A stretch of DNA of 64,000 nucleotides, taken from Lutibacter sp. Hel_I_33_5 (GTDB lineage Bacteria > Bacteroidota > Bacteroidia > Flavobacteriales > Flavobacteriaceae). The DNA lies in the NCBI RefSeq assembly GCF_007827455.1, contig NZ_VISM01000001.1, positions 620,001 through 684,000 on the forward strand, written 5' to 3'. The translations under genes and the position numbers were made by a program. Shown piece after piece: positions 14,134 through 39,636 of this stretch (positions are counted from its first letter, which is position 1; every line of letters begins with the position of its first letter). The notes beneath the pieces were generated by a model. That model saw only the letters and a program-made list of their open reading frames with translations. It did no database searches and was not told where the DNA came from.

Positions 14134-15117
14134 TTATTTTATATAAACTTCTAATAATTCTGAATTCTCTTCAGAAGTAATTTTAATATTTTTAATACAA
14201 GCCGGTACTAAAATAGTTTCACCCATTTTTAGTGTTTCTTGTTGATTACTATACTCAAATAAAACATTTCCTTCTACACACATATAAATAACAAAACTAT
14301 CTTTTTTAGAATGATTAACAGAAATAGTTCTATTTACAGGTAAAACATTGGTTGTAAAATAAGGGCATGAAACAATTTCCGAAGCACTATTCTGTTCTTT
14401 TTTATAATCAGTTTTATATGATTTTTGAGCTTTATAATCAATTACATCTATAGCTTCTTCTGTATGTAAATCCCTGAATGTTCCATCAGGATTTGGTCTA
14501 TCCCAATCATAAATCCTATAGGTAATATCAGATGTTTGCTGAATTTCCGCTATTAAAACTCCAGCTCCTATTGCATGAACTCTACCATTAGGAATAAAAT
14601 AAACATCGCCTTTTTTAACCTCATCAATATTTAAAATATCGGTAAGTGTTTTATTTTCTAAATGACCTAAATATTCTTCTGAAGTAACATCTTTTTTGAA
14701 GCCAACAATTAGATTCGCTTTTTCATCAGCTTGCATTACATACCACATTTCTGTTTTTCCGAATGAGTTATGACGTTTTTTAGCCAGATCATTATGTGGA
14801 TGTAACTGAATACTTAGTGCTTCTTTTGCATCTATAAACTTAATTAATAGCGGAAATTTTTCACCAAAATGTTTATAAATAGTTTCGCCAACCAAGTCAT
14901 ATTTAAATTCAGAAATCAACTCTTTTAAATCTTTTCCTTTTAAAGCACCGTTTGCAACTATTGAGGTATCTCCTTTTACATCGGAAATTTCCCAACTTTC
15001 ACCAATATCTTTTCTTTTGGAAACTTTATTAAGATTTTTCATCAACTTTTGACCACCCCAAATTTTATCTTTTAGGATAGGTTCAAATTTTAAAAGTTGA
15101 TGTATAGGCATTGTCAT
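14134..15117 (-). CDS. manA: Mannose-6-phosphate isomerase, class I
   Basis: This is a type I phosphomannose isomerase of the short bacterial form (327 residues), interconverting mannose 6-phosphate and fructose 6-phosphate. Zinc-site and family blocks are DAKEALSIQLHPHND (about 97-110), the KTEMWYVM block and IPNGRVHAIGAGVLIAEIQQTSD. A C-terminal cupin follows. The start could be either ATG of MTM (15117 or 15111). It heads the manA-kdsB-HAD operon and supplies mannose-derived sugars. Confidence 0.92.
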   Translation of the reverse strand: MTMPIHQLLKFEPILKDKIWGGQKLMKNLNKVSKRKDIGESWEISDVKGDTSIVANGALKGKDLKELISEFKYDLVGETIYKHFGEKFPLLIKFIDAKEALSIQLHPHNDLAKKRHNSFGKTEMWYVMQADEKANLIVGFKKDVTSEEYLGHLENKTLTDILNIDEVKKGDVYFIPNGRVHAIGAGVLIAEIQQTSDITYRIYDWDRPNPDGTFRDLHTEEAIDVIDYKAQKSYKTDYKKEQNSASEIVSCPYFTTNVLPVNRTISVNHSKKDSFVIYMCVEGNVLFEYSNQQETLKMGETILVPACIKNIKITSEENSELLEVYIK

Positions 15118-21360: not shown

Positions 21361-21719
21361 TGTGAAAAATTCAGTTCACCTCTAAACCTATACCTTTCAA
21401 ATTCAGATAGTTATAAATATAAATGAAACGATGAATATTCGTAAAGTTAAGAACAACTAAACAAATATAAGGTCGAAAATACATTAACCACCTAGAGTCT
21501 AGAAATGTGAAGGTTAAAATCGAAGAAAAAAGAATACCTATTTTAAATAAAATAAACTTTCTTTTTTCAATATGTAATTCTCACATTTTACAAAGTTTAA
21601 TTTTATAAATCTACACCATTACATAAATCCACATTTTTGCTTGCGTAAAACTCTCGACATTTCTTTTATTAACTATTAATTTTAGCGTAATAAGACAACG
21701 TTTTATTATTACATAACTA
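21361..21719. other. Non-coding stretch before the barstar cassette
   Basis: There is no credible gene here. The only structure I see is a nested inverted repeat at 21484-21517: TTAACC with GGTTAA outside, and CTAGA with TCTAG inside (21492-21502). It could be a folded RNA, an operator or a remnant. The rest is AT-rich without terminators or clear promoter boxes. The cassette left end follows directly. Confidence 0.4.
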
Positions 21720-21748
21720 GTTGTAGGTAATTCCAAAAAAAAAATAGT

Positions 21749-22006
21749 ATGAAAACAGAAAAGATTACTAAAAGTTGGAGTAAGCTTAATGATAGACAAA
21801 AAAATGAAGCATCAGGATATTATATAAGTGAATTTCAAAAATTCTATACTGAAACTCTAACATTAGAGAACGCCAGATTAATTTTAGATAATGATAAACC
21901 TTATGTTAAGGTTTATACACCTGAAAATATAGAACATGTATTTAAATTATCAGAAACCTATATGAATGAAGTACTTCTAGCTTTAATCAAAAAACGTGAT
22001 AATTAG
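21749..22006 (+). CDS. Small protein of unknown function in the barstar cassette
   Basis: This 85-residue, charged and probably helical protein starts 19 bases after the cassette left end. I recognise no family; no signal peptide or membrane segment is visible. Its last 11 bases overlap the start of the barstar-like gene, so the two are probably translated together. Given its partner it could be a second immunity protein or an accessory factor, but that is speculation. Confidence 0.6.
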   Translation: MKTEKITKSWSKLNDRQKNEASGYYISEFQKFYTETLTLENARLILDNDKPYVKVYTPENIEHVFKLSETYMNEVLLALIKKRDN

Positions 22007-22457
22007 AAAAGAAATTAAAGATGATAATGAACTATATTTATATTTCAATGACAGATTGATTTATAAAAGATGGTTGAATGATGGATATTCTAAAGTATTT
22101 GACAAAATGGCTTATGGAAAAGACACTTTCGTTAGTATCATCGAAGATGAAAATGGAAAAATTCGACATCGAAGAAAGATTTTCATAAACGGAGAATTTT
22201 GTGAAACCAAAGAAGATTTTTGGAATAGATATGTAGCAGAGATTGAATCTGAAAAATTATTCGGAAAGAATCTTGACGCTTTTAATGACGCAATAATAGC
22301 TGAAGGACCTGGATTTCCAGGAGATTGTATAATTGAAATTATCGGAACTAAAAAACTTGAAAAAGTATTTGGAAAGAAAAATTTTGACTTTATAATCGGA
22401 CTATTGAGAGATGCTGAATTTGTTGACCTGATAATTGAGAAAGAAAATATTGAATAA
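21996..22457 (+). CDS. Barstar-like ribonuclease inhibitor (immunity protein)
   Basis: The C-terminal 90 residues resemble barstar: KIFINGE (61-67) corresponds to the first strand, and LFGKNLDAFNDAI (88-100) matches barstar's YYGENLDALWDCL. This keeps the two barnase-binding acids as Asp94 and Asp98. Some 60 extra residues precede this domain. Barstar proteins block secreted RNases and are often orphan immunity genes against polymorphic toxins. The start is GTG at 21996, overlapping the upstream gene by 11 bases; the first internal ATG (residue 38) is an alternative. No barnase-like toxin gene is in the window. Confidence 0.75.
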   Translation: MIIRKEIKDDNELYLYFNDRLIYKRWLNDGYSKVFDKMAYGKDTFVSIIEDENGKIRHRRKIFINGEFCETKEDFWNRYVAEIESEKLFGKNLDAFNDAIIAEGPGFPGDCIIEIIGTKKLEKVFGKKNFDFIIGLLRDAEFVDLIIEKENIE

Positions 22458-22461
22458 AAAC

Positions 22462-22650
22462 TACCTACAACAACGTGTAAAAAACATAGGGCTGTTTATG
22501 CTTAATTTAAAGGCTTGGGTTTCTTTATGAGGTCGCCAAATTTTCAATTTGGCATTTAGAAAAAATAAAAGCAAAATATGTAAATTTGGCTTAGTGAGAG
22601 TTCGAAAGACAGTGCTTACCCTCTGCCCTACGTTCCTTACACCAAACGTT
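22462..22650. repeat. attC-like structured region of the cassette
   Basis: After TACCTACAAC, the 18-base arm GTGTAAAAAACATAGGGC (22475-22492) is complementary at 15 of 18 positions to 22625-22642 (GCCCTACGTTCCTTACAC). A perfect inner hairpin, GCCAAATT/AATTTGGC (22535-22553), sits in between, and AAATTTGGC recurs at 22582-22590. The region ends with AACGTT (22645-22650) 16 bases before the sulfatase stop. I recall very similar sequences near small accessory genes in other flavobacterial genomes. No gene is present in it. Confidence 0.55.
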
Positions 22651-22665
22651 ATCGAAACATAAAAA

Positions 22666-23961
22666 TCACATTCTAATTTTATCAGCCTCTATTTTTAATG
22701 CTGTTTTTGCTTTAGTTGCTTCAGAAGATAAAGTCGTACCAATTAAATTAGTATTTTCATAAGAGTCTGTAGACAAATTATAAAATTCTTCACTTCCATC
22801 ACTAAATACTAAAAGCTTGTAGGTATTATTTCTAATAGTATAGTCATTTGTTGTCTCAGCATAAACATATTCTCGTTCGTTACTAGAAGTACCAGAAAAT
22901 AGTTCATAAAAACTTGTGCTGTTATTTATTGTTGAGGAATTTATCCCTGCAATATTTCCAACAGTATTATATATATCTGTTGCATGAATTAATGCATCTT
23001 CTCTACTCCCTTTTTTAGTAACTCCAGCACCAGAAACTACTAATGGTACATTTATTCCACCTTGATATAACGAACCTTTTGCTCGTGTTCTTCCGTAAGG
23101 AGCTTGTGAAACTTTATTAGGCGTTCCGTTATCACCAATAAAAATAATGACTGTATTTGCTTTTTCTTCTGCACTCATACTATTAATTAATCTACCTATT
23201 TCACTATCTAAAACTTCAATGGCAGACATATAATACGGCATTGGGTTTGCAGCAATACTAGCATCATCTGTAGGTAAACTTCCTTGGGAATGTAAATTAG
23301 TTGGTGCTAAATGAAACGGTGTATGTGGAGCATTATATCCCATCCATAAAAACCAAGGTTTCGTTTGTTTATCAATCCAATCTATAGCTAAATCTGTAAA
23401 TTTTGTGGTTGTATATTCTGTAGAATTTGTGGTGGTTCCGTTTTCATAAAAGTTCCAATTGGTATATGATGGTACGCCACCATTTATAATTCCTGCATAA
23501 TAATCGATGCCCATGGTTAATGCATCTGCTCCATCAACAGATAAATGCCACTTCCCTATCATAGCAGAAGCATATTCATCATTTGTATTGGTGTCTATAT
23601 ATTTTTGTATAGAAGTTTCAGAAGTAGAAATCTCATCTCCAACTTCTATCACGTCTGTTTTAATTCCGTATTTACCTGTTAAAATTGCTGCTCTTGTTGG
23701 AGTACAAACTGGATACGACCAAAAATTTTCAAAAGTAATCCCATCATTCATCAAACTTTGTAAATTGGTCATATTGGGTTTTATAGTTCCTTCTGAATAA
23801 TTTGGAGTTGCATCTAAGCCCATATCATCAGCAATTATGAGTAAAATATTTGGCTTTTTAGTGACTACAATTTCTTCTATAACTTCTTCCGTTTCTGTAA
23901 CCTGGGAAGAGCTACAGCCAAAAACCATTAAAAACCCGATTAAAAATATATATTTTTTCAT
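22666..23961 (-). CDS. Sulfatase lipoprotein (S1 type)
   Basis: A lipobox at Cys16 (MVFGCSSS) marks lipidation. The alkaline-phosphatase-fold metal site begins at NILLIIADDMGLD (39-50). The formylglycine precursor is Cys86 in the sulfatase signature CTPTR. IGDNGTPNKV and GKWHLS supply further ligands. It removes sulfate esters, probably from sulfated algal polysaccharides, at the cell envelope. It needs a maturase not encoded here. Length (431) is normal for an arylsulfatase-like enzyme. It stands alone, downstream of the cassette on the opposite strand. Confidence 0.88.
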   Translation of the reverse strand: MKKYIFLIGFLMVFGCSSSQVTETEEVIEEIVVTKKPNILLIIADDMGLDATPNYSEGTIKPNMTNLQSLMNDGITFENFWSYPVCTPTRAAILTGKYGIKTDVIEVGDEISTSETSIQKYIDTNTNDEYASAMIGKWHLSVDGADALTMGIDYYAGIINGGVPSYTNWNFYENGTTTNSTEYTTTKFTDLAIDWIDKQTKPWFLWMGYNAPHTPFHLAPTNLHSQGSLPTDDASIAANPMPYYMSAIEVLDSEIGRLINSMSAEEKANTVIIFIGDNGTPNKVSQAPYGRTRAKGSLYQGGINVPLVVSGAGVTKKGSREDALIHATDIYNTVGNIAGINSSTINNSTSFYELFSGTSSNEREYVYAETTNDYTIRNNTYKLLVFSDGSEEFYNLSTDSYENTNLIGTTLSSEATKAKTALKIEADKIRM

Positions 23962-31700: not shown

Positions 31701-32776
31701 GAGGAGTTATTAAATGGACTAGAAGACACATTTTGCTATTTTTATTGATAGCAACAATCCCAGTTTTCTTGTTTGATGTTGCTGGTTTAAAATGGTTGCA
31801 TGTGCCTTGGTTGCCATTAGGAGTTTTAGGTACAGCTATTTCGTTTTTAATCAGTTTTAAAAATAATGCTTCGTATGATCGTTTATGGGAAGCACGTAAA
31901 ATTTGGGGTGGAATTGTAAACACTTCACGTTCTTGGACGATTATGGTAAAAGATTTCATTGATAATACCCATGCAAAAAATCCTAAATCAAAAGAAGAGT
32001 TACAAGCGATAAAAAAAGAAATTGTTCATAGACATGTTGCTTGGTTAACGGCTTTAAGATATCAATTAAGAGCAGATAAACCTTGGGAATCTCATTTAAA
32101 AAATGACAAAGGAAATACAGAATTTAGAGAAGCATTTTATTTAGTTTGTGAAGATGTAGACTCTATAGAAAGTGTAATAAAACCTTATATTTCTGAAAAT
32201 GAGTATAATGAAGTTTTTGCTAAAGGAAATAAGCCTTCACAACTATTAGGCATACAATCTAGACGATTAAAAGAATTAATGGATGAAGGTTTCATTGAAG
32301 ATTTTCGTCATATGGAAATGATGAATATTTTAGTCGAATTTTACACTTTACAAGGAAAATCTGAACGTATCAAAAACTTCCCATACCCTAGACAATACGC
32401 AACCTTAAACTATATTTTTGTTTGGATTTTCATCATCCTTTTACCTTTCGGAATTATGGAAGGTTTTGAAGGTATTGGTCAGCATATTTTTGAGGATTTA
32501 GCCAACCATGCTTCACATTCTTCATTTACGCATAGAATACAAGAAGCTATTGCGAAACATTTTGTATGGTTTTCAATTCCTTTTAGTGCTTTACTTTCTT
32601 GGGTTTTTCATACGATGGAAAAAATTGGTGAAAACACAGAAAACCCTTTTGAAGGAGGACCCAATGATGTGCCAATTACAGATTTAAGTAGAGGAATAGA
32701 AATTGATATTAGACAATTAATTGATGATACAGATATACCGAAACCGTATCAATGGAAAAATGATATTGTAATGTAA
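31673..32776 (+). CDS. Bestrophin-family ion channel
   Basis: At 367 residues this matches the bacterial bestrophin (UPF0187/YneE) family. It has hydrophobic helices at about 20-60, then the conserved SFKNNASYDRLWEARKIWGGIVNTSRSW block (61-88). Two further helices follow at about 240-265 and 300-320. Family members are pentameric anion or cation channels of the inner membrane. The promoter lies in the duplicated segment. The gene probably was the original divergent partner of the M14 peptidase gene. Confidence 0.88.
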   Translation: MYTKRIFPVRGVIKWTRRHILLFLLIATIPVFLFDVAGLKWLHVPWLPLGVLGTAISFLISFKNNASYDRLWEARKIWGGIVNTSRSWTIMVKDFIDNTHAKNPKSKEELQAIKKEIVHRHVAWLTALRYQLRADKPWESHLKNDKGNTEFREAFYLVCEDVDSIESVIKPYISENEYNEVFAKGNKPSQLLGIQSRRLKELMDEGFIEDFRHMEMMNILVEFYTLQGKSERIKNFPYPRQYATLNYIFVWIFIILLPFGIMEGFEGIGQHIFEDLANHASHSSFTHRIQEAIAKHFVWFSIPFSALLSWVFHTMEKIGENTENPFEGGPNDVPITDLSRGIEIDIRQLIDDTDIPKPYQWKNDIVM

Positions 32777-32827
32777 GTTTTTTCTTTTTTCGGAAAAAAT
32801 ATTTAACTAAATTTATATAAAATAAAT

Positions 32828-33322
32828 ATGAAAAGAACAATATTATTAGTTGTAACTATTTTATTTATAATTTCAGCTAATTCTCAAGAAAAGAAAATTT
32901 GGGCAAAATCTTTTATTAATAAAAAAGCTCCAAGTATAATTGTAGAGAAATGGTTGACACAAAAACCAAATACTGAAGGTAAATTTATACTTTTAGATTT
33001 TTGGGCTACTTGGTGCGGACCATGTATAAAAGCCATACCAGAACTTAATTCTTTTCAAAAGGAATTTAAAAAAGATTTAGTTGTTATTGGTATAAGTAGT
33101 GAAACTCCTAGGAAAGTTAAAAAACAAAGAAATCCTAAAATTAAATACTTTAGCGCAATTGATCGAAAACGAAGATTAAATACTATATTAGAGATTAAAG
33201 GAATTCCTCATTGCATTCTAATAGATCCAAGAGGAATTGTTAGGTGGGAAGGATATCCAATATTAAAAAACAATGAATTAACTTCTAAAGTAATTAAAGA
33301 GCTAATTAAAAAATATAAATAA
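32828..33322 (+). CDS. Secreted TlpA-like thioredoxin
   Basis: Signal peptide to about residue 19 (SANSQ). The thioredoxin active site is WATWCGPC with Cys63 and Cys66, and the cis-Pro block is GIPHCILIDPRGIVRW. As a TlpA/ResA-like periplasmic thiol-disulfide oxidoreductase it would reduce envelope disulfides. An extra Cys sits beside the cis-Pro (PHC), which is common in flavobacterial homologues. It lies 51 bases after the bestrophin gene and may share its transcript. Confidence 0.87.
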   Translation: MKRTILLVVTILFIISANSQEKKIWAKSFINKKAPSIIVEKWLTQKPNTEGKFILLDFWATWCGPCIKAIPELNSFQKEFKKDLVVIGISSETPRKVKKQRNPKIKYFSAIDRKRRLNTILEIKGIPHCILIDPRGIVRWEGYPILKNNELTSKVIKELIKKYK

Positions 33323-33485
33323 AGTTTTAGGAATAATAAAAGAGTCAAAAAAAATCCTAAATTCTTAATTTTTCTTCTATGAAATTACTAGAATGATAAA
33401 ATTTTATAAAGAGTTACTCATTTTTTCTATACTATTTATTTTATACTGATATTTGCAGTTAATCACCTACTTTATATAGTGAATA

Positions 33486-36398
33486 ATGGTTGACAACTCA
33501 AACTTAGAAGTTCTAAACAACGCTCTTTCTGGAGAATTATTTTTTGATGATTTACACAAAAGCATCTATGCAACGGATGCATCGGTATATCGTAAAATTC
33601 CTACTGCGGTTGCCTTTCCTAAAAACAAAAAAGACATTGTAAAACTCATTGAGTTTGCTAATCAAAATTCAATCACTTTAATTCCTAGAACAGCAGGAAC
33701 TTCGTTAGCAGGTCAATGTGTTGGAGATGGAATTGTCGTTGATGTTTCTAAACATTTTACGCAGATTTTAGCCTTTGATGAAACTAGTAAAACAATTACG
33801 GTTGAGCCAGGAATTATTAGAGATGATTTAAATCGTTTTTTAAAACCCTACGGATTATTTTTTGGCCCAAATACCTCAACATCAAACCGATGTATGATTG
33901 GCGGAATGGTAGGTAATAATTCTTCCGGTAGTACTTCAATTCGTTATGGAGTTACACGTGATAAAGTTGTAAATATTGATGGTTTATTAAGTGATGGAAC
34001 CAATGTTTCTTTTCATGAAGTTACCTCACAAGAGTTTAAAGAAAAATCCAATCTAAATTCTTTAGAAGGAAAAATATATAAAAGTATTTATTCTGAACTC
34101 GTTTCAGAATCTACGCAACAAGAAATAAAAAATGAATTTCCAAAACCAGAAATTCATAGAAGAAATACAGGGTATGCCGTTGATGAGTTTTTGACTTCCG
34201 ATTTATTCGGTGGAGAAAATCCAACTATTAATCCTGCAAAGTTTTTATCAGGAAGTGAAGGAACTCTAGTGTTTTCAACTGCAATTACCATTCAGTTAGA
34301 CGACTTACCTCCTACGGAAAGCATTATGGTTTGCACACATTTTAAAAGTGTAAACGAAAGTTTAAAAGCTACAGTTATTGCCATGAATCACAACTTATAT
34401 ACCTGTGAATTGATGGACAAAGTAATTTTAGATTGCACCAAAAATAACAGAGAACAAGCCCAGAACCGTTTCTTTTTACAAGGTGATCCAGATGCCATAT
34501 TAATGTTAGAAGTTTCTGCAAATACTTTGAAAGAAGCAGAAGTTTTAGCTGATATATTAATTGCTGATTTAGAAAAGAATAAGTTCGGGTATCATCATCC
34601 AAAAGTATATGGAAAAGATATTGCAAAAGTCCATCATCTTAGAAAAGCTGGCTTAGGATTATTAGGTAATATGGTTGGTGATAAAAAAGCGGTGGCATGT
34701 ATAGAAGATACTGCTGTGGCTTTAGAAGACTTACCAAACTATATTGAAGAGTTTACCCAAATAATGGATAGATATCAGCAAGATGCTGTTTATTATGCTC
34801 ATGCTGGTGCTGGGGAATTACATTTACGTCCAATTTTGAATTTAAAGAAGCAAGAAGATGTCGTTTTATTCAGAAAAATAACCACTGAAACTGCCGAGTT
34901 AGTTAAGAAATATAAAGGTTCTTTTAGCGGTGAACATGGTGATGGAATTGTACGTGCAGAGTTTATTTCGTTAATGATTGGTGATAAAAATTATCAATTA
35001 TTAAGGCGCATTAAAAAAGCATTTGATCCTAACAATGTTTTTAATAAAGGAAAAATAACGGATGCTTTTGAAATGGATAAAAGCTTGCGTTATGAAATTG
35101 ATCGAAAAGAACCTATTATAAAAACCATTCAGGATTTTTCTGATAGTGAAGGAATTTTAAAATTAACTGAAAAATGTAATGGTTCGGGTGATTGTAGAAA
35201 ATCTGCAGAAGCTGGCGGAACGTTATGTCCGAGTTATAGAGCTACAAAAAACGAAAAAGATACCACAAGAGCACGTGCAAATACTTTACGAGAAGTTTTA
35301 ACCAATAATTCAACTTCTAATAAATTTGATTCTAAAGAACTTAAAGAAGTTTTTGACCTTTGTTTAAGCTGTAAAGCTTGTGCCACAGAATGTCCTAGTA
35401 ATGTTGATGTAGCAGCCTTAAAAGCAGAGTTTTTATATCAATATCAAGAAAAAAATGGATATTCGTTTAGAAGTAAATTATTTGCTAACAACGTAAAATA
35501 CAATAAATTAGGAAGTAAATTTCCTGCAATTACTAATTTCATTACCAATACAGCGCTTTCAAAAGCTATTATGGGAGTTGCGCAAGAACGAAGTGTTCCT
35601 AAATTATCTAAACAACCTTTAGAGAAGTTTTTAGAAAAGTTAAATGTCATTTCAAGCGCAGTCGAGAAATCTCAGAAAGAAGTTTATTTATTTAACGATG
35701 AATTCACTAATTACTACGATACAGAAATTGGAAAAGACGCTTTAATAGTTTTAGATAAATTAGGATATCAAACTAAAAATATAAAGCACGAAGAAAGCGG
35801 AAGAAGTCATATTTCTAAAGGATTTTTAAAAGAAGCTAAAGAAATAGCAAATAAAAATGTTTCAATTTTTAAAGATTTAATAACTGATAAAAGTCCGTTA
35901 ATAGGAATTGAACCATCGGCAATTTTAACGTTTAGAGATGAATACATCCGACTAGCAGATGACAAAGTATCCGCAGAAAAAATAGCTAAGAATACGTTTA
36001 CGATTGAAGAGTTTTTAGCATCAGAATTCAAAAAAGGAAATATAAATTCTGAAATCTTTACAAATGCGTCTAAGACGCTAAAAATTCATGGACATTGTCA
36101 TCAAAAAGCATTGTCTAGTACACATGCTACTTTTGAAATTTTAAACATCCCAGAAAACTACAAAGTAACTATTATGAATACGGGTTGTTGTGGAATGGCG
36201 GGTTCTTTTGGGTATGAAAAAGAACACTATAAAGTTTCTATGCAAGTTGGAGAAGACACGTTGTTTCCTAAAGTTAGAAATTGTAGTGCTGACACAGAAA
36301 TTGCAGCAGCAGGAACAAGTTGCAGACATCAAATTTTTGATGGCACAAAACGTATTGCTAAACACCCAATAACATTATTAAAAGAAGCTTTATTATAG
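33486..36398 (+). CDS. FAD-linked oxidase with 4Fe-4S and CCG domains (D-lactate/glycolate dehydrogenase-like)
   Basis: The 970-residue protein has a FAD-binding PCMH domain (about 35-210; RTAGTSLAGQCVG, GGMVGNNSSGS), a FAD-oxidase C-terminal domain to about 540 (SGEHGDGIVR) and ferredoxin-like clusters (KCNGSGDCRKS; LCLSCKACATECPSNVD). Two cysteine-rich CCG segments (HGHCHQKALSS; NTGCCGMAGSFGYE) end it. This architecture is that of large D-2-hydroxyacid (lactate/glycolate) dehydrogenases feeding electrons to quinones. Residues about 720-730 (NVISSAVEKSQ) are encoded by a palindromic repeat inserted in frame (see 35645). Confidence 0.87.
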   Translation: MVDNSNLEVLNNALSGELFFDDLHKSIYATDASVYRKIPTAVAFPKNKKDIVKLIEFANQNSITLIPRTAGTSLAGQCVGDGIVVDVSKHFTQILAFDETSKTITVEPGIIRDDLNRFLKPYGLFFGPNTSTSNRCMIGGMVGNNSSGSTSIRYGVTRDKVVNIDGLLSDGTNVSFHEVTSQEFKEKSNLNSLEGKIYKSIYSELVSESTQQEIKNEFPKPEIHRRNTGYAVDEFLTSDLFGGENPTINPAKFLSGSEGTLVFSTAITIQLDDLPPTESIMVCTHFKSVNESLKATVIAMNHNLYTCELMDKVILDCTKNNREQAQNRFFLQGDPDAILMLEVSANTLKEAEVLADILIADLEKNKFGYHHPKVYGKDIAKVHHLRKAGLGLLGNMVGDKKAVACIEDTAVALEDLPNYIEEFTQIMDRYQQDAVYYAHAGAGELHLRPILNLKKQEDVVLFRKITTETAELVKKYKGSFSGEHGDGIVRAEFISLMIGDKNYQLLRRIKKAFDPNNVFNKGKITDAFEMDKSLRYEIDRKEPIIKTIQDFSDSEGILKLTEKCNGSGDCRKSAEAGGTLCPSYRATKNEKDTTRARANTLREVLTNNSTSNKFDSKELKEVFDLCLSCKACATECPSNVDVAALKAEFLYQYQEKNGYSFRSKLFANNVKYNKLGSKFPAITNFITNTALSKAIMGVAQERSVPKLSKQPLEKFLEKLNVISSAVEKSQKEVYLFNDEFTNYYDTEIGKDALIVLDKLGYQTKNIKHEESGRSHISKGFLKEAKEIANKNVSIFKDLITDKSPLIGIEPSAILTFRDEYIRLADDKVSAEKIAKNTFTIEEFLASEFKKGNINSEIFTNASKTLKIHGHCHQKALSSTHATFEILNIPENYKVTIMNTGCCGMAGSFGYEKEHYKVSMQVGEDTLFPKVRNCSADTEIAAAGTSCRHQIFDGTKRIAKHPITLLKEALL
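35645..35673 (+). repeat. Palindromic repeat arm inside the FAD oxidase gene
   Basis: TGTCATTTCAAGCGCAGTCG followed by AGAAATCTC is a single arm of the TTCGAGCGCAGTCGAGA-type element seen at 20254. The ends pair (ATTTC/GAAAT). It lies in frame between the FeS and CCG domains and encodes VISSAVEKS. Its close relative at 63801 lies in argS in the same frame. Confidence 0.7.
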
Positions 36399-36493
36399 TA
36401 ATTAGTTCTTAGTTTCTTGTTGTTGGTAATTTGTTTTATTTATCATTATTCTTTTGATTTTCGTTTTTGTACATTTAAACCCTAATCATTTTT

Positions 36494-37750
36494 ATGTTTA
36501 AAACTAAAAAGAAAGCAACTGCCATGTTTGCCCTCATTATTGCAGGGGAAGCTATTTTTTTATTACCATTTATTTTAATGCGTGTTTTTAAACCGGTTAT
36601 TAGAGAAGCTTTTCTAATTTCTGATGCTCAAATTGGTGAAGCACAAGCTTTATACGGAATTACAGCGGTTCTCTCCTATTTCTTTGGTGGATTTATTGCT
36701 GATAAATGGGAAGCTAGAAAATTATTAACGTTCTCTTTATTATTAACTGCTTTAGGCGGTTTTTGGATGACCATGATTCCATCAATATTCACTTTAAAAA
36801 TGCTATATGCATTTTGGGGAATATCAACTATTTTACTTTTTTGGGCATCGCTGATAAAAGCAACCAGACAATGGGGAAACAAAAATAATCAAGGATTATC
36901 TTTTGGTTTATTAGATGGAGGAAGAGGATTATTTGCTGCTACAATTGCGTTATCTGGCGCAGGAATTTTAACTTTTTTCTTTCCAGATAAAGGAGTCGAA
37001 ATAACTTTTGAAAATAAAGTAGAAACATTACAATATATTATAGGTACGATTACATGTATCGTATTTTTAATTGCCTTTTTAGTTTGGAAAGTATTACCAA
37101 AAGAAAAAATAGAAACTCAAGATAATAAAGAATTTCAATTCGACTTTAAGAAAGCTTTTTCTTTAATAAAACAACAAAAGGTAATCTATCATTCCATCAT
37201 TATTTTTTGCGCCTATTGTTCTTATAAACTAACTGGTGTCTATGGAACCTATGCAAAAGATGTTTGGAATTATTCATTAGAAGAAGCTACTTATTTTGCT
37301 GTTTTTATTCAATATTTAAGACCTTTAGCTGCAATTTCTATTGGTTGGATTGCCGATAAATTTGTTCCATCAAAATTAATTACCCCTATTTTTTCAATAC
37401 TAATTTTAGTGTCAGCTTTTTTAGGATTTGGAGTTTTTAACGACCAACATATTTATATATCATTTTCCATATTTATATTCATGGCTTTAGGAACCTATTC
37501 ATTAAGAGGCTTGTATTTTGCAATTATTGAAGAAACAAAAACACCGCTTCAGTTAACAGGAACTTTAGTCGGAATTATTTCTGTAGTGGGTTTTACGCCT
37601 GACATTTTTATGTCTTTATTTACAGGATATATGTTAGGAGAAAATCCAACAATTATCGAATATCAACATTTATTTTCAACCTTTACAATCATACCAATAA
37701 TAGGTTTATTGGCAACTTTAGGTTTTAGAAAAAGCATTTCAAAATTATGA
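36494..37750 (+). CDS. MFS transporter
   Basis: At 418 residues with about 12 hydrophobic helices, this has major facilitator features such as GGFIADKWEARKLLTFSL in the loop between helices 2 and 3, and IGWIADKFVPSKL in the equivalent loop of the second half. It is an inner-membrane secondary transporter; the substrate is unclear, perhaps a sugar or organic acid given its partner. Its stop overlaps the ATG of the aldo-keto reductase gene by 4 bases (ATGA), so both are coupled. Confidence 0.85.
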   Translation: MFKTKKKATAMFALIIAGEAIFLLPFILMRVFKPVIREAFLISDAQIGEAQALYGITAVLSYFFGGFIADKWEARKLLTFSLLLTALGGFWMTMIPSIFTLKMLYAFWGISTILLFWASLIKATRQWGNKNNQGLSFGLLDGGRGLFAATIALSGAGILTFFFPDKGVEITFENKVETLQYIIGTITCIVFLIAFLVWKVLPKEKIETQDNKEFQFDFKKAFSLIKQQKVIYHSIIIFCAYCSYKLTGVYGTYAKDVWNYSLEEATYFAVFIQYLRPLAAISIGWIADKFVPSKLITPIFSILILVSAFLGFGVFNDQHIYISFSIFIFMALGTYSLRGLYFAIIEETKTPLQLTGTLVGIISVVGFTPDIFMSLFTGYMLGENPTIIEYQHLFSTFTIIPIIGLLATLGFRKSISKL

Positions 37751-38745
37751 GTAAAAGAAGTAAATATATAGCTGATAAAAATCGCTATGAGAAGATGAAT
37801 TACCGTAGAACGGGAAATAGTGGCTTATTACTTCCTGAACTTTCTTTAGGCTTATGGCATAATTTTGGAGAAAATGATGATTTTAAAAATGCAAGAAATT
37901 TATTAAAATGTGCTTTTGATAACGGAATTACGCATTTTGATTTAGCAAATAACTATGGTCCGCCTTATGGTTTTGCTGAAACAACTTTTGGAAAAATTTT
38001 AAAAAAGGATTTCAAAAATTATAGAGATGAATTAATTATTTCTTCCAAAGCAGGTTATGATATGTGGGAAGGTCCATATGGTAATTTTGGCTCAAAGAAA
38101 TATTTAATCTCTAGTTTAGATCAAAGTTTACAAAGAATGAAGTTAGACTATGTTGATATTTTTTATCATCATAGACCAGATAATGATACGCCTTTAGAAG
38201 AAACAATGGGTGCTTTAGATTTGATGGTTAGACAAGGAAAAGCATTGTATGTTGGTATTTCTAATTATCAACCTAAAGAAGCAGAAAAAGCTTTTAAAAT
38301 CTTAAATGATTTAGGAACTCCATGTTTAATTCATCAACCAAGATATAGTTTATTTGATCGTTGGATTGAAAATGGATTATTAGATTTATTAGGAAATTCT
38401 GGTGTTGGTACAATTTGTTTTTCACCTTTAGCACAAGGAATGTTAACCGATAAATATATTAATGGATTACCAAAAGATTCTAGAGCCATAAAGGACGGAC
38501 GCTATCTTAAAACTGACAAAGTTTTAGAAATGCTTCCTAAAATTAAAACATTAAATGAAATTGCAAAGAATAGAAATCAGAATTTAGCACAAATGGCTAT
38601 TTCTTGGATTTTAAAAGATGATAGAATTACTTCAGTATTAATTGGTGCTAGTAAAACTGAACAAATATTAGATAGTGTTAAAGCTATTGAAAACACAATA
38701 TTTACAGAACAAGAATTATCTACTATTAATTCTATTTTAAAATAA
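37747..38745 (+). CDS. Aldo-keto reductase (YghZ/GAP-reductase-like)
   Basis: The AKR tetrad is recognisable as Asp and Tyr in THFDLANNYGPPYG, Lys in ISSKAGYDMW and His in FYHHRPD. The NADPH site is IGASKTEQILDSVKA. The start MNYRRTGNSGLLLPELSLGLWHNFG (from residue 17) is close to YghZ, the L-glyceraldehyde-3-phosphate reductase, a subfamily linked to Kv-beta subunits. Sixteen extra residues precede this start; the ATG at 37795 is an alternative, but coupling to the MFS stop favours 37747. Confidence 0.87.
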   Translation: MSKRSKYIADKNRYEKMNYRRTGNSGLLLPELSLGLWHNFGENDDFKNARNLLKCAFDNGITHFDLANNYGPPYGFAETTFGKILKKDFKNYRDELIISSKAGYDMWEGPYGNFGSKKYLISSLDQSLQRMKLDYVDIFYHHRPDNDTPLEETMGALDLMVRQGKALYVGISNYQPKEAEKAFKILNDLGTPCLIHQPRYSLFDRWIENGLLDLLGNSGVGTICFSPLAQGMLTDKYINGLPKDSRAIKDGRYLKTDKVLEMLPKIKTLNEIAKNRNQNLAQMAISWILKDDRITSVLIGASKTEQILDSVKAIENTIFTEQELSTINSILK

Positions 38746-38784
38746 AAAAGGATTTATAATTTAGAAATATTTAGTTAAAATTAT

Positions 38785-39636
38785 TTAATCAATAATGCCT
38801 TCTTCAGCTAATAAAGCAAAGAACTTATTTAAATTTGGCATTAAAATAATTTTAGTTCTTCTGTTTTTAGCTCTATTAGTTTTTGAATCATTTGGATACA
38901 AAGGTATTGTATCTCCTCTACCAGAAGCTATTAATCTACTACCTTCTATATCGAATTTACTTTGTAAAATTCTAACAATTGTTGTTGCTCTTTTTACACT
39001 TAAATCCCAATTATCTTGTACACTCTCATTTTGAATTGTTTGAGAGTCCGTATGACCTTCAACCATTACATCTAGACTCTTTTCTGACTGAATAATATCA
39101 ACAACTTTAGTCAAAAGTTCCAAACCACTTTTCTTAAAATTATAGCTACCAGAACTAAATAATAGTTTATCAGAAATTGATATCATAACTACTGTTTCCT
39201 CTATATCAACTTTAATATCATCAGAACTATTAAACTCTGTTTTTCCTAAAGTTTTTCTTACAATATTGTAAGACATTGCTAAATTTATTGAATCTTTTAA
39301 CGTTTTTGCTTGCGTTAATTTTTCTGGTGAAATTTTAGATAGAGTTTTGTTTAGGTTTGATTTAGCTTCTTTTGACAAGACAGCTTTACCATCTACCATC
39401 TCTAATTTAAAAGCATTTTCTGTTTTTAAATTAACTTCATTATTACCACTTAAGGAATTTATTTTATCATTATAGAGCTCAATTCTTTTATCAATTTTAG
39501 CATACTTAAGTTGTAACTTTTGCAAACTACCTTTTGTATTATGATATTTAGATTCTAATTGAACATATTTTTTCTTAGACACACAAGAAGTGGCTATTAA
39601 TACAAATGCTAATAATGCTAAGGTTAATTTTTTCAT
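38785..39636 (-). CDS. OmpA-family peptidoglycan-binding lipoprotein
   Basis: A lipobox at Cys18 (IATSC) is followed by a long helical or coiled-coil region (about 25-60) and a C-terminal OmpA domain. The diagnostic part is MVEGHTDSQT...DLSVKRATTIVRIL...GRGDTIPLYPNDSKTNRAKNRRTKI. The Asp and Arg that bind diaminopimelate are kept. It would tether the outer membrane to peptidoglycan. Single gene, convergent with the aldo-keto reductase and 73 bases downstream of valS. Confidence 0.88.
   Translation of the reverse strand: MKKLTLALLAFVLIATSCVSKKKYVQLESKYHNTKGSLQKLQLKYAKIDKRIELYNDKINSLSGNNEVNLKTENAFKLEMVDGKAVLSKEAKSNLNKTLSKISPEKLTQAKTLKDSINLAMSYNIVRKTLGKTEFNSSDDIKVDIEETVVMISISDKLLFSSGSYNFKKSGLELLTKVVDIIQSEKSLDVMVEGHTDSQTIQNESVQDNWDLSVKRATTIVRILQSKFDIEGSRLIASGRGDTIPLYPNDSKTNRAKNRRTKIILMPNLNKFFALLAEEGIID

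Follow-up and report, generated by a model that had tools for sequence, protein, structure and literature searches.

A solitary cassette-like unit in Lutibacter

The window analysed here, a stretch of 64,000 nucleotides from the genome of Lutibacter sp. Hel_I_33_5, contains a compact unit on the plus strand that would run from 21721 to 22648 (928 bp between G21720 and T22649) if it is delimited by the putative G|TT cut points at its two ends. The unit opens with a left box of the R' type, GTTGTAGGTA (21720-21729). An open reading frame of 85 aa (21749-22006) starts 29 nt after this box and overlaps a barstar-like gene of 153 aa (21996-22457), both on the plus strand, as is every other part of the unit. 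Behind the genes lies an attC-like site of ~190 bp overall, composed of an R'' box TACCTACAAC (22462-22471), which is the exact reverse complement of GTTGTAGGTA and pairs with it, an L'' arm GTGTAAAAAACATAGGGC (22475-22492), a variable terminal part (22493-22624) of the kind seen in the long (~185 nt) class of sites, with a perfect inner hairpin GCCAAATT/AATTTGGC around the loop TTC (22535-22553), an L' arm GCCCTACGTTCCTTACAC (22625-22642) and a final AACGTT (22645-22650), where the cut would fall at G22648|T22649. The two arms form an outer stem with 15 of 18 positions paired. The three exceptions are all A.C and fall, with the first position of the stem numbered 0, at positions 6, 7 and 11; on the bottom strand they read as G.T. 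The inverted boxes, the stem, the inner hairpin and the terminal AACGTT had all been pointed out in an earlier note on this DNA, and each of them proved exact to the base.

The product of the barstar-like gene scores above the gathering cut-off of Pfam PF01337 (36.6 versus 23.4 bits) and is, by that score, a predicted member of the barstar family, as the earlier note had proposed. For the 85-aa frame no family match over cut-off was obtained, and neither of the two proteins had a match in a scan for defence families. An 87%-identical relative of the barstar-like protein occurs in another genome (G028) among different neighbours and without the 85-aa frame. Relatives in three other stretches (L229-L231, from genomes G022, G025 and G610) match only its first ~50-60 residues, as if the C-terminal part were exchanged between relatives.

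A perfect seven-base continuation of the GTTGTAGGTA type would be expected 0.004 times by chance, given 64 GTT in the 4 kb upstream. The window hairpin alone is weak evidence, because 15 of 18 paired positions were also reached by two of 60 shuffles and the region folds with a z-score of just -1.42, a value for which we dropped single-site folding as proof of the site. It is the comparison with other sites that lifts the window site above chance, since a covariance model built from 58 of them, the window site excluded, detects 22461-22650 at an E-value of 8.9e-12 (E-values of the site models being rough) and yields no second match with E <=1 anywhere in the window. Rfam models run over 21500-22900 returned eight matches with E-values of 0.5-10, all far below their cut-offs and none overlapping the site.

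A DNA search with the whole window unit found only one distant place on a plasmid and one short phage match within the gene part. Within the Lutibacter genome, the DNA search returned four more full copies at 72-75% identity plus partial copies, some of them consecutive, and the window site has a match at E <=0.001 in 25 of 59 relatives. A tandem array of cassettes lies on the minus strand at C1:2488-2496 kb, where the GTT box that opens a cassette and the box of that cassette's own 3' site are reverse complements (GTTCTACGCA/TGCGTAGAAC, GTTGTAAGCA/TGCTTACAAC and GTTGTGTACA/TGTACACAAC, among others) and the box after each site is that of the next cassette. The earlier note had described the window unit as being without an integrase, which holds locally and not for the genome, where a recombinase gene with its own array is located at C1:1471310-1472494, 0.83 Mb from the window unit. 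There are three attI-like platforms in this genome, one with the recombinase (C1:1472439) and two without it (2495636 and 2965349); the attI-like copies of the latter two (C1:2495636-2495718 and 2965349-2965413, in L011 and L010) are each 95% identical to the recombinase-adjacent one over the matched part, and both head cassettes. Elements that we take from their protein sequence to be IS110-like sit inside or right at sites of the Lutibacter genome (L011 7336-8653 and L048 13156-14470), as if they targeted the site hairpin.

Immediately to the left of the window unit, TACATAACTAG (21710-21720) resembles the attI core TATAACNAG seen 3' of recombinases, and by this likeness, which is one of resemblance only, TACATAACTAG|TT is probably a secondary target site or a decayed attI; the cassette may have entered at a secondary site. 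The search for an empty site covered 40 genomes, in which the sulfatase was found 19 times and the isomerase region 40 times. No clean empty site for the window cassette was present in the three relatives where both are visible close together; other genes lie between the two there, and a motif search found no site.

Boxes, stems and gene content of the cassettes

A strict site caller made 253 calls in 1.56 Mb against four in the same sequence reversed, and all neighbouring site pairs (177 distinct) were used to compare the seven bases after GTT. The left box agreed with the 3' box of its own cassette at at least six of the seven bases in 120 of the 177 pairs, compared with eight of the 177 for the box of the preceding site and 3.8% of random pairs. 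Mean matches out of seven were 5.54 for the own 3' box, 2.85 for the preceding box and 2.71 under permutation (highest of 1000 means, 3.10). Fewer than five bases matched in 47 pairs, many of which are likely explained by a skipped intermediate site. When the search was made by box alone, the own R'' was found for 142 of 196 boxes and was not found for 54. The co-variation of left end and own 3' box is what the earlier note had anticipated for a cassette system of Flavobacteriia with attC-like sites; also in keeping with it, the genes preceding the sites vary from copy to copy. For other classes of the phylum, just 5 of 18 sites gave at least seven of eight bases in the left-box test, and several boxes there look shorter.

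The stems carry a strand bias of their own. Among 207 hairpins whose strand was fixed by the recombinase gene, a set found with an ungapped stem, the 16-bp stem has an A.C (top strand) at position 6 in 179 cases and at position 11 in 187, and a G.T on the top strand at these positions in none. With each site joined to the complement of its own R'', as it would be in a circle, the bottom strand was predicted to fold better as DNA in 204 of the 207 (mean 4.2 kcal/mol). The 142 sites found by their boxes comprise 93 with an ungapped stem, 20 whose pairing clearly improves when the L' arm is allowed a single extra base, by which we rejected the idea that extrahelical bases are lacking altogether, and 29 ambiguous ones. 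Of these box-found sites, 102 have a usable stem, and they show A.C in 79 cases at the first of the two positions and in 84 at the second, with no G.T at either. In an alignment of 58 short-type sites, picked by a stem-based caller that favours such a result, 12 of 14 stem pairs show changes in both arms, and paired cells make up 96.5%, against 25-44% when the arms are slid. Bottom-strand G.T wobbles at two fixed positions of the stem account for most of the strand bias of these sites, whereas in classical attC sites, which also recombine as bottom strands, extrahelical bases are the mark (PMC2727003).

Matching boxes delimited 160 cassettes, a few of which are overlapping calls of one unit, with a median gene part of 739 nt. 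The longest reading frame is on the cassette strand in 138 and on the opposite strand in four, while 18 lack a frame of 40 aa; the median distance from the left box to the first start codon is 32 nt. From a random sample of 30 cassette proteins, 20 were compared with Pfam and eight with PADLOC. A Pfam match at 1e-4 was obtained for eight of the 20 (an esterase, Fic, PIN_8, TonB_C twice, Schlafen/NB-ARC, an MmeI-type restriction-modification protein and HAD), and a PADLOC defence-family match for one of the eight (PDC-S31).

For signs of movement, the 156 cassettes with both flanks were compared, requiring at least 80% identity over at least 85% of the length together with both 40-bp flanks less than 60% identical. 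Five pairs pass. In an array of an uncultured Polaribacter (L115), a 794-bp cassette stands both at attI and far inside the array, the two copies being 100% identical. Two further pairs are internal to L066, a fourth links G013 with G021 (95.7%), and the fifth links Algibacter mikhailovii with G009 (90.4% over 1125 bp). Their flanks are just 28-50% alike, so that identity stops at G|TT, the point at which the analysis rule cuts cassettes. Seven further pairs have a similar flank, five of them being one unit called twice and two lying within L066.

The recombinase and the attI-like site

The earlier note had suggested looking for a tyrosine recombinase in genomes rich in these sites, and one of ~390 aa, found as a weaker match to TIGR02249, is encoded in many genomes 5' of the sites and on the same strand. 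We inspected 20 stretches from relatives, picked because they contain recombinases or clusters of sites. In the Lutibacter genome and in five stretches (L048, L063, L074-L077) the distance from the recombinase stop to the first matched left box is ~27-42 bp, and the arrays that begin there reach a dozen sites or more. The location of sites was then evaluated in the best 80 of 573 loci retrieved with a recombinase profile, all in named Bacteroidota and including Polaribacter, Tenacibaculum, Winogradskyella, Algibacter, Bizionia, Lutibacter, Psychroserpens and Mesonia. Within these best 80 of 573 loci, 112 of 121 site calls were on the plus strand 3' of the recombinase (299,530 bases), against two on the plus strand 5' of it (718,624 bases, 2.4x more DNA), six on the minus strand and one inside the gene. 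Where at least 2.5 kb lay 3' of the recombinase, a called site was present in 25 of 33 loci and absent in eight; the other 47 have less 3' DNA because of a contig or stretch end, and eight of them carry a site. Site and recombinase lay on the same strand, with the site 3', in 22 of 22 further pairs within 25 kb among the matches listed.

Of the 69 recombinases whose stop could be located, 52 have the attI-like pattern TATAACN[ACG]G|TT in the 150 bp that follow the stop and 17 do not; among random windows of that length 0.9% have it. A TAnnTTTG box, which we take to be the Bacteroidetes -7 box, stands at most 35 nt upstream of the pattern in 20 of the 52 (16 of them at one spacing), with shuffles reaching a mean of 1.3 and a maximum of 6; it may represent the cassette promoter (Pc).

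Six recombinases scored 187-215 bits against TIGR02249 (IntI), whose cut-off is 265, so by this NCBI cut-off the protein is not an IntI. The best-scoring NCBIfam model for the same six is NF040815, at 202-221 bits for a cut-off of 220, with two just over it and four under. A PF00589 match was given by the four proteins scanned with Pfam. Tyrosine recombinases have the catalytic motif R-K-H-R-H-Y, and R231, K256/K259, H320, R323, H346 and Y355 are invariant in 15 of the proteins. The IntI-specific insertion with the I2 helix, between the catalytic Lys and His, is absent: residues 179-246 of 2A3V are unmatched, the spacing between two motifs is 58-59 residues in 30 recombinases as against 100 in five IntI and 66 in one Xer, and residues 280-295 contain no predicted helix of four or more residues. 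There is an extra N-terminal domain of ~90 residues, perhaps HARP/XPB-like, which may substitute for the missing I2 helix. Foldseek with the whole recombinase gave, as would be expected, XerA and IntI as the nearest structures. The recombinase alignment (A3) has 29 rows, nine of 38 having been left out, one for a stop codon and eight as a precaution. In the tree, the eight IntI rows stand on one side of a branch (100/100) and represent 8 of 21 loci, the other 13 having given no reading frame within the pattern and length limits; the 30 Bacteroidia recombinase rows group weakly (79/43) and the two Xer rows are long branches. One genome, G001, has two integron-like platforms (L062 and L074), with recombinases alike at both protein ends and with different cassettes.

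Distribution, known systems and interpretation

A site model (R1) found sites in 156 of 296 genomes of Bacteroidia and in 97 of 165 genera, in a survey that scored at most 11 places per genome and included the Lutibacter genome, the source of some training sites. Over the 296 genomes, 109 had both sites and recombinase (profile E <=1e-80), 44 the recombinase only, 47 sites only and 96 neither (odds ratio 5, p 4e-11). The system had been placed in Flavobacteriia by the earlier note, and it is found there, although it extends beyond them and into other classes. Sites are also carried by a plasmid and a phage. Chryseobacterium plasmid NZ_CP041688 (L206, 5974-11600) has the recombinase followed by three same-strand sites (E-values 1e-7, 9e-8 and 0.01) and is a possible mobile form of the system. 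Polaribacter phage P12002L (L158) has sites at 32216-39244 and 14503-14632, some of just ~62-65 nt and several beside DNA methyltransferase genes, and the phage genes at 32-39 kb are on the opposite strand to the sites.

Likeness to the IntI integrons (class 1, the Vibrio superintegron) is extensive, as both have cassettes made of a gene and a 3' hairpin, a left box pairing with the own R'', a G|TT cut point (putative in Bacteroidia), an attI or attI-like site, a tandem array and a bottom strand that folds better. They differ in the recombinase, which in Bacteroidia is without the IntI-specific insertion, scores under the TIGR02249 cut-off and is encoded codirectionally with the array, and in the sites, where wobbles take most of the place of the bulged base. 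Codirectional integrase and cassettes, with the integrase transcribed toward attI, are described for Treponema (PMC3607928); those integrons are described with intI, and the likeness noted here is one of gene orientation. NF040815, named for XerA as 'site-specific tyrosine recombinase/integron integrase', is the closest NCBIfam model, but the Bacteroidia recombinase has its additional N-terminal domain and adjoins cassette arrays. For Bacteroidetes, the IntegronFinder 2.0 report speaks of earlier In0 only and of one complete integron, in Salinibacter ruber M1, which belongs to the same phylum in the broad sense, a complete integron requiring IntI in that work (PMC9024848); the program would presumably miss an IntI-less system or count it as attC clusters. 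Bacteroidota are named, in a passage giving no detail, among integron-bearing phyla (PMC8618304), and are absent from the 11 taxon models of attC presented in PMC8352920. Our search of the open-access literature, with subscription papers and preprints outside its scope, found no account of this system, and to that extent the word undescribed in the earlier note stands.

By its structure the system is integron-like, judging from sequence, while its recombinase falls outside the tests that define IntI. A cassette array beside a tyrosine recombinase and an attI-like site is found for the system, and the window unit is solitary. What the comparison of sequences brings out is a common architecture, box co-variation, a strand bias of the stems, an attI-like site, an association with the recombinase and dispersed near-identical cassettes, and the window unit is very probably a single integron-type cassette, lying outside arrays, of a Bacteroidia integron-like system run by the ~390-aa recombinase. 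Such a system would consist of the recombinase gene, an attI-like site 3' of its stop and, on the same strand, cassettes in tandem, most of them with a single gene and each ending in an attC-like hairpin. The presumed substrate of the recombinase, the bottom strand of such a hairpin site, would fold by pairing R'' with R' and L'' with L', and the recombinase, acting on the folded site, would join it to attI, to another site or occasionally to a secondary G|TT. Cassettes could in this way be excised, shuffled and recaptured, and excision and recapture at G|TT would leave each circle carrying its own left box at the join.

An unlikely alternative holds that the sites are ordinary attC moved by the conventional IntI of other bacteria, the adjoining recombinase being incidental or otherwise employed. 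Phage P12002L lends it some weight, as it carries sites of the same type, and IntI1 recombined its attC2, possibly one of the R1-found sites, solely as a bottom strand; another P12002L site was not recombined (PMC9892861). The CALIN of this phage is described there as integrase-less attC clusters, in terms that do not link it to the Bacteroidia recombinase. R1 sites occur in 12 of 30 IntI-carrying genomes of other classes, and in one of them (G358; L238, 7800-15333) three plus-strand sites lie 4-6.5 kb 5' of a same-strand true IntI. This was the exception among six regions inspected from such genomes; in two (L240 = G429 and L241 = G359) the sites lie 3' of the I2-less recombinase and share its strand, even though a true IntI is present elsewhere in the genome, and three gave no recombinase reading frame by the pattern used. 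Against this alternative, no IntI over the TIGR02249 cut-off was found in the Lutibacter genome or in any of the 59 relatives, and of the 84 IntI-positive genomes among 296 in a sample of the phylum just one belongs to Bacteroidia.

It is very unlikely that the window unit is instead a small transposon-like element of another enzyme, such as a single-strand transposase or an IS91-linked integrase, a reading suggested by its solitary position and by a Myroides plasmid on which a relative of the recombinase is annotated beside an IS91 transposase. The units carry different genes and stand head to tail with shared boundaries, and such arrays are unusual for transposons. Slightly less probable still is the idea that the hairpins act as transcription terminators, or as RNA elements separating genes that have been duplicated repeatedly, and take no part in recombination. 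Hairpins do follow same-strand genes, and attC sites are believed to include weak terminators (PMC9892861), but a terminator leaves unexplained the pairing of the left end with its own 3' box, the end of identity at G|TT and the attI-like site; we rejected this reading, which is incompatible with box co-variation and for which Rfam offered no family over cut-off in 21500-22900.

Returning to the proposed integron-like system run by the ~390-aa recombinase, we lean slightly towards a further proposal, namely that it represents a second and separate integron lineage in Bacteroidia, in which a XerA-like recombinase would work on folded single strands without I2, a HARP/XPB-like domain would read the junction between single and double strand, and the strand would be marked by G.T wobbles replacing most extrahelical bases. 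The I2 helix is held to be what permits single-strand recombination (PMC7790495), and a class-wide cassette system without it would, if true, break that rule and offer a natural experiment on the origin or replacement of I2. With 156 of 296 genomes bearing sites, such a lineage would be among the most widespread cassette systems known. It may bear on the macroalgal survey in which ~10% of attC sites were assignable to a taxon (PMC10963911). The system would also bring to light a large number of mobile accessory genes that have so far escaped notice, among them restriction-modification, Fic and immunity-like genes and many unknown ones, with a plasmid and a phage among its carriers.
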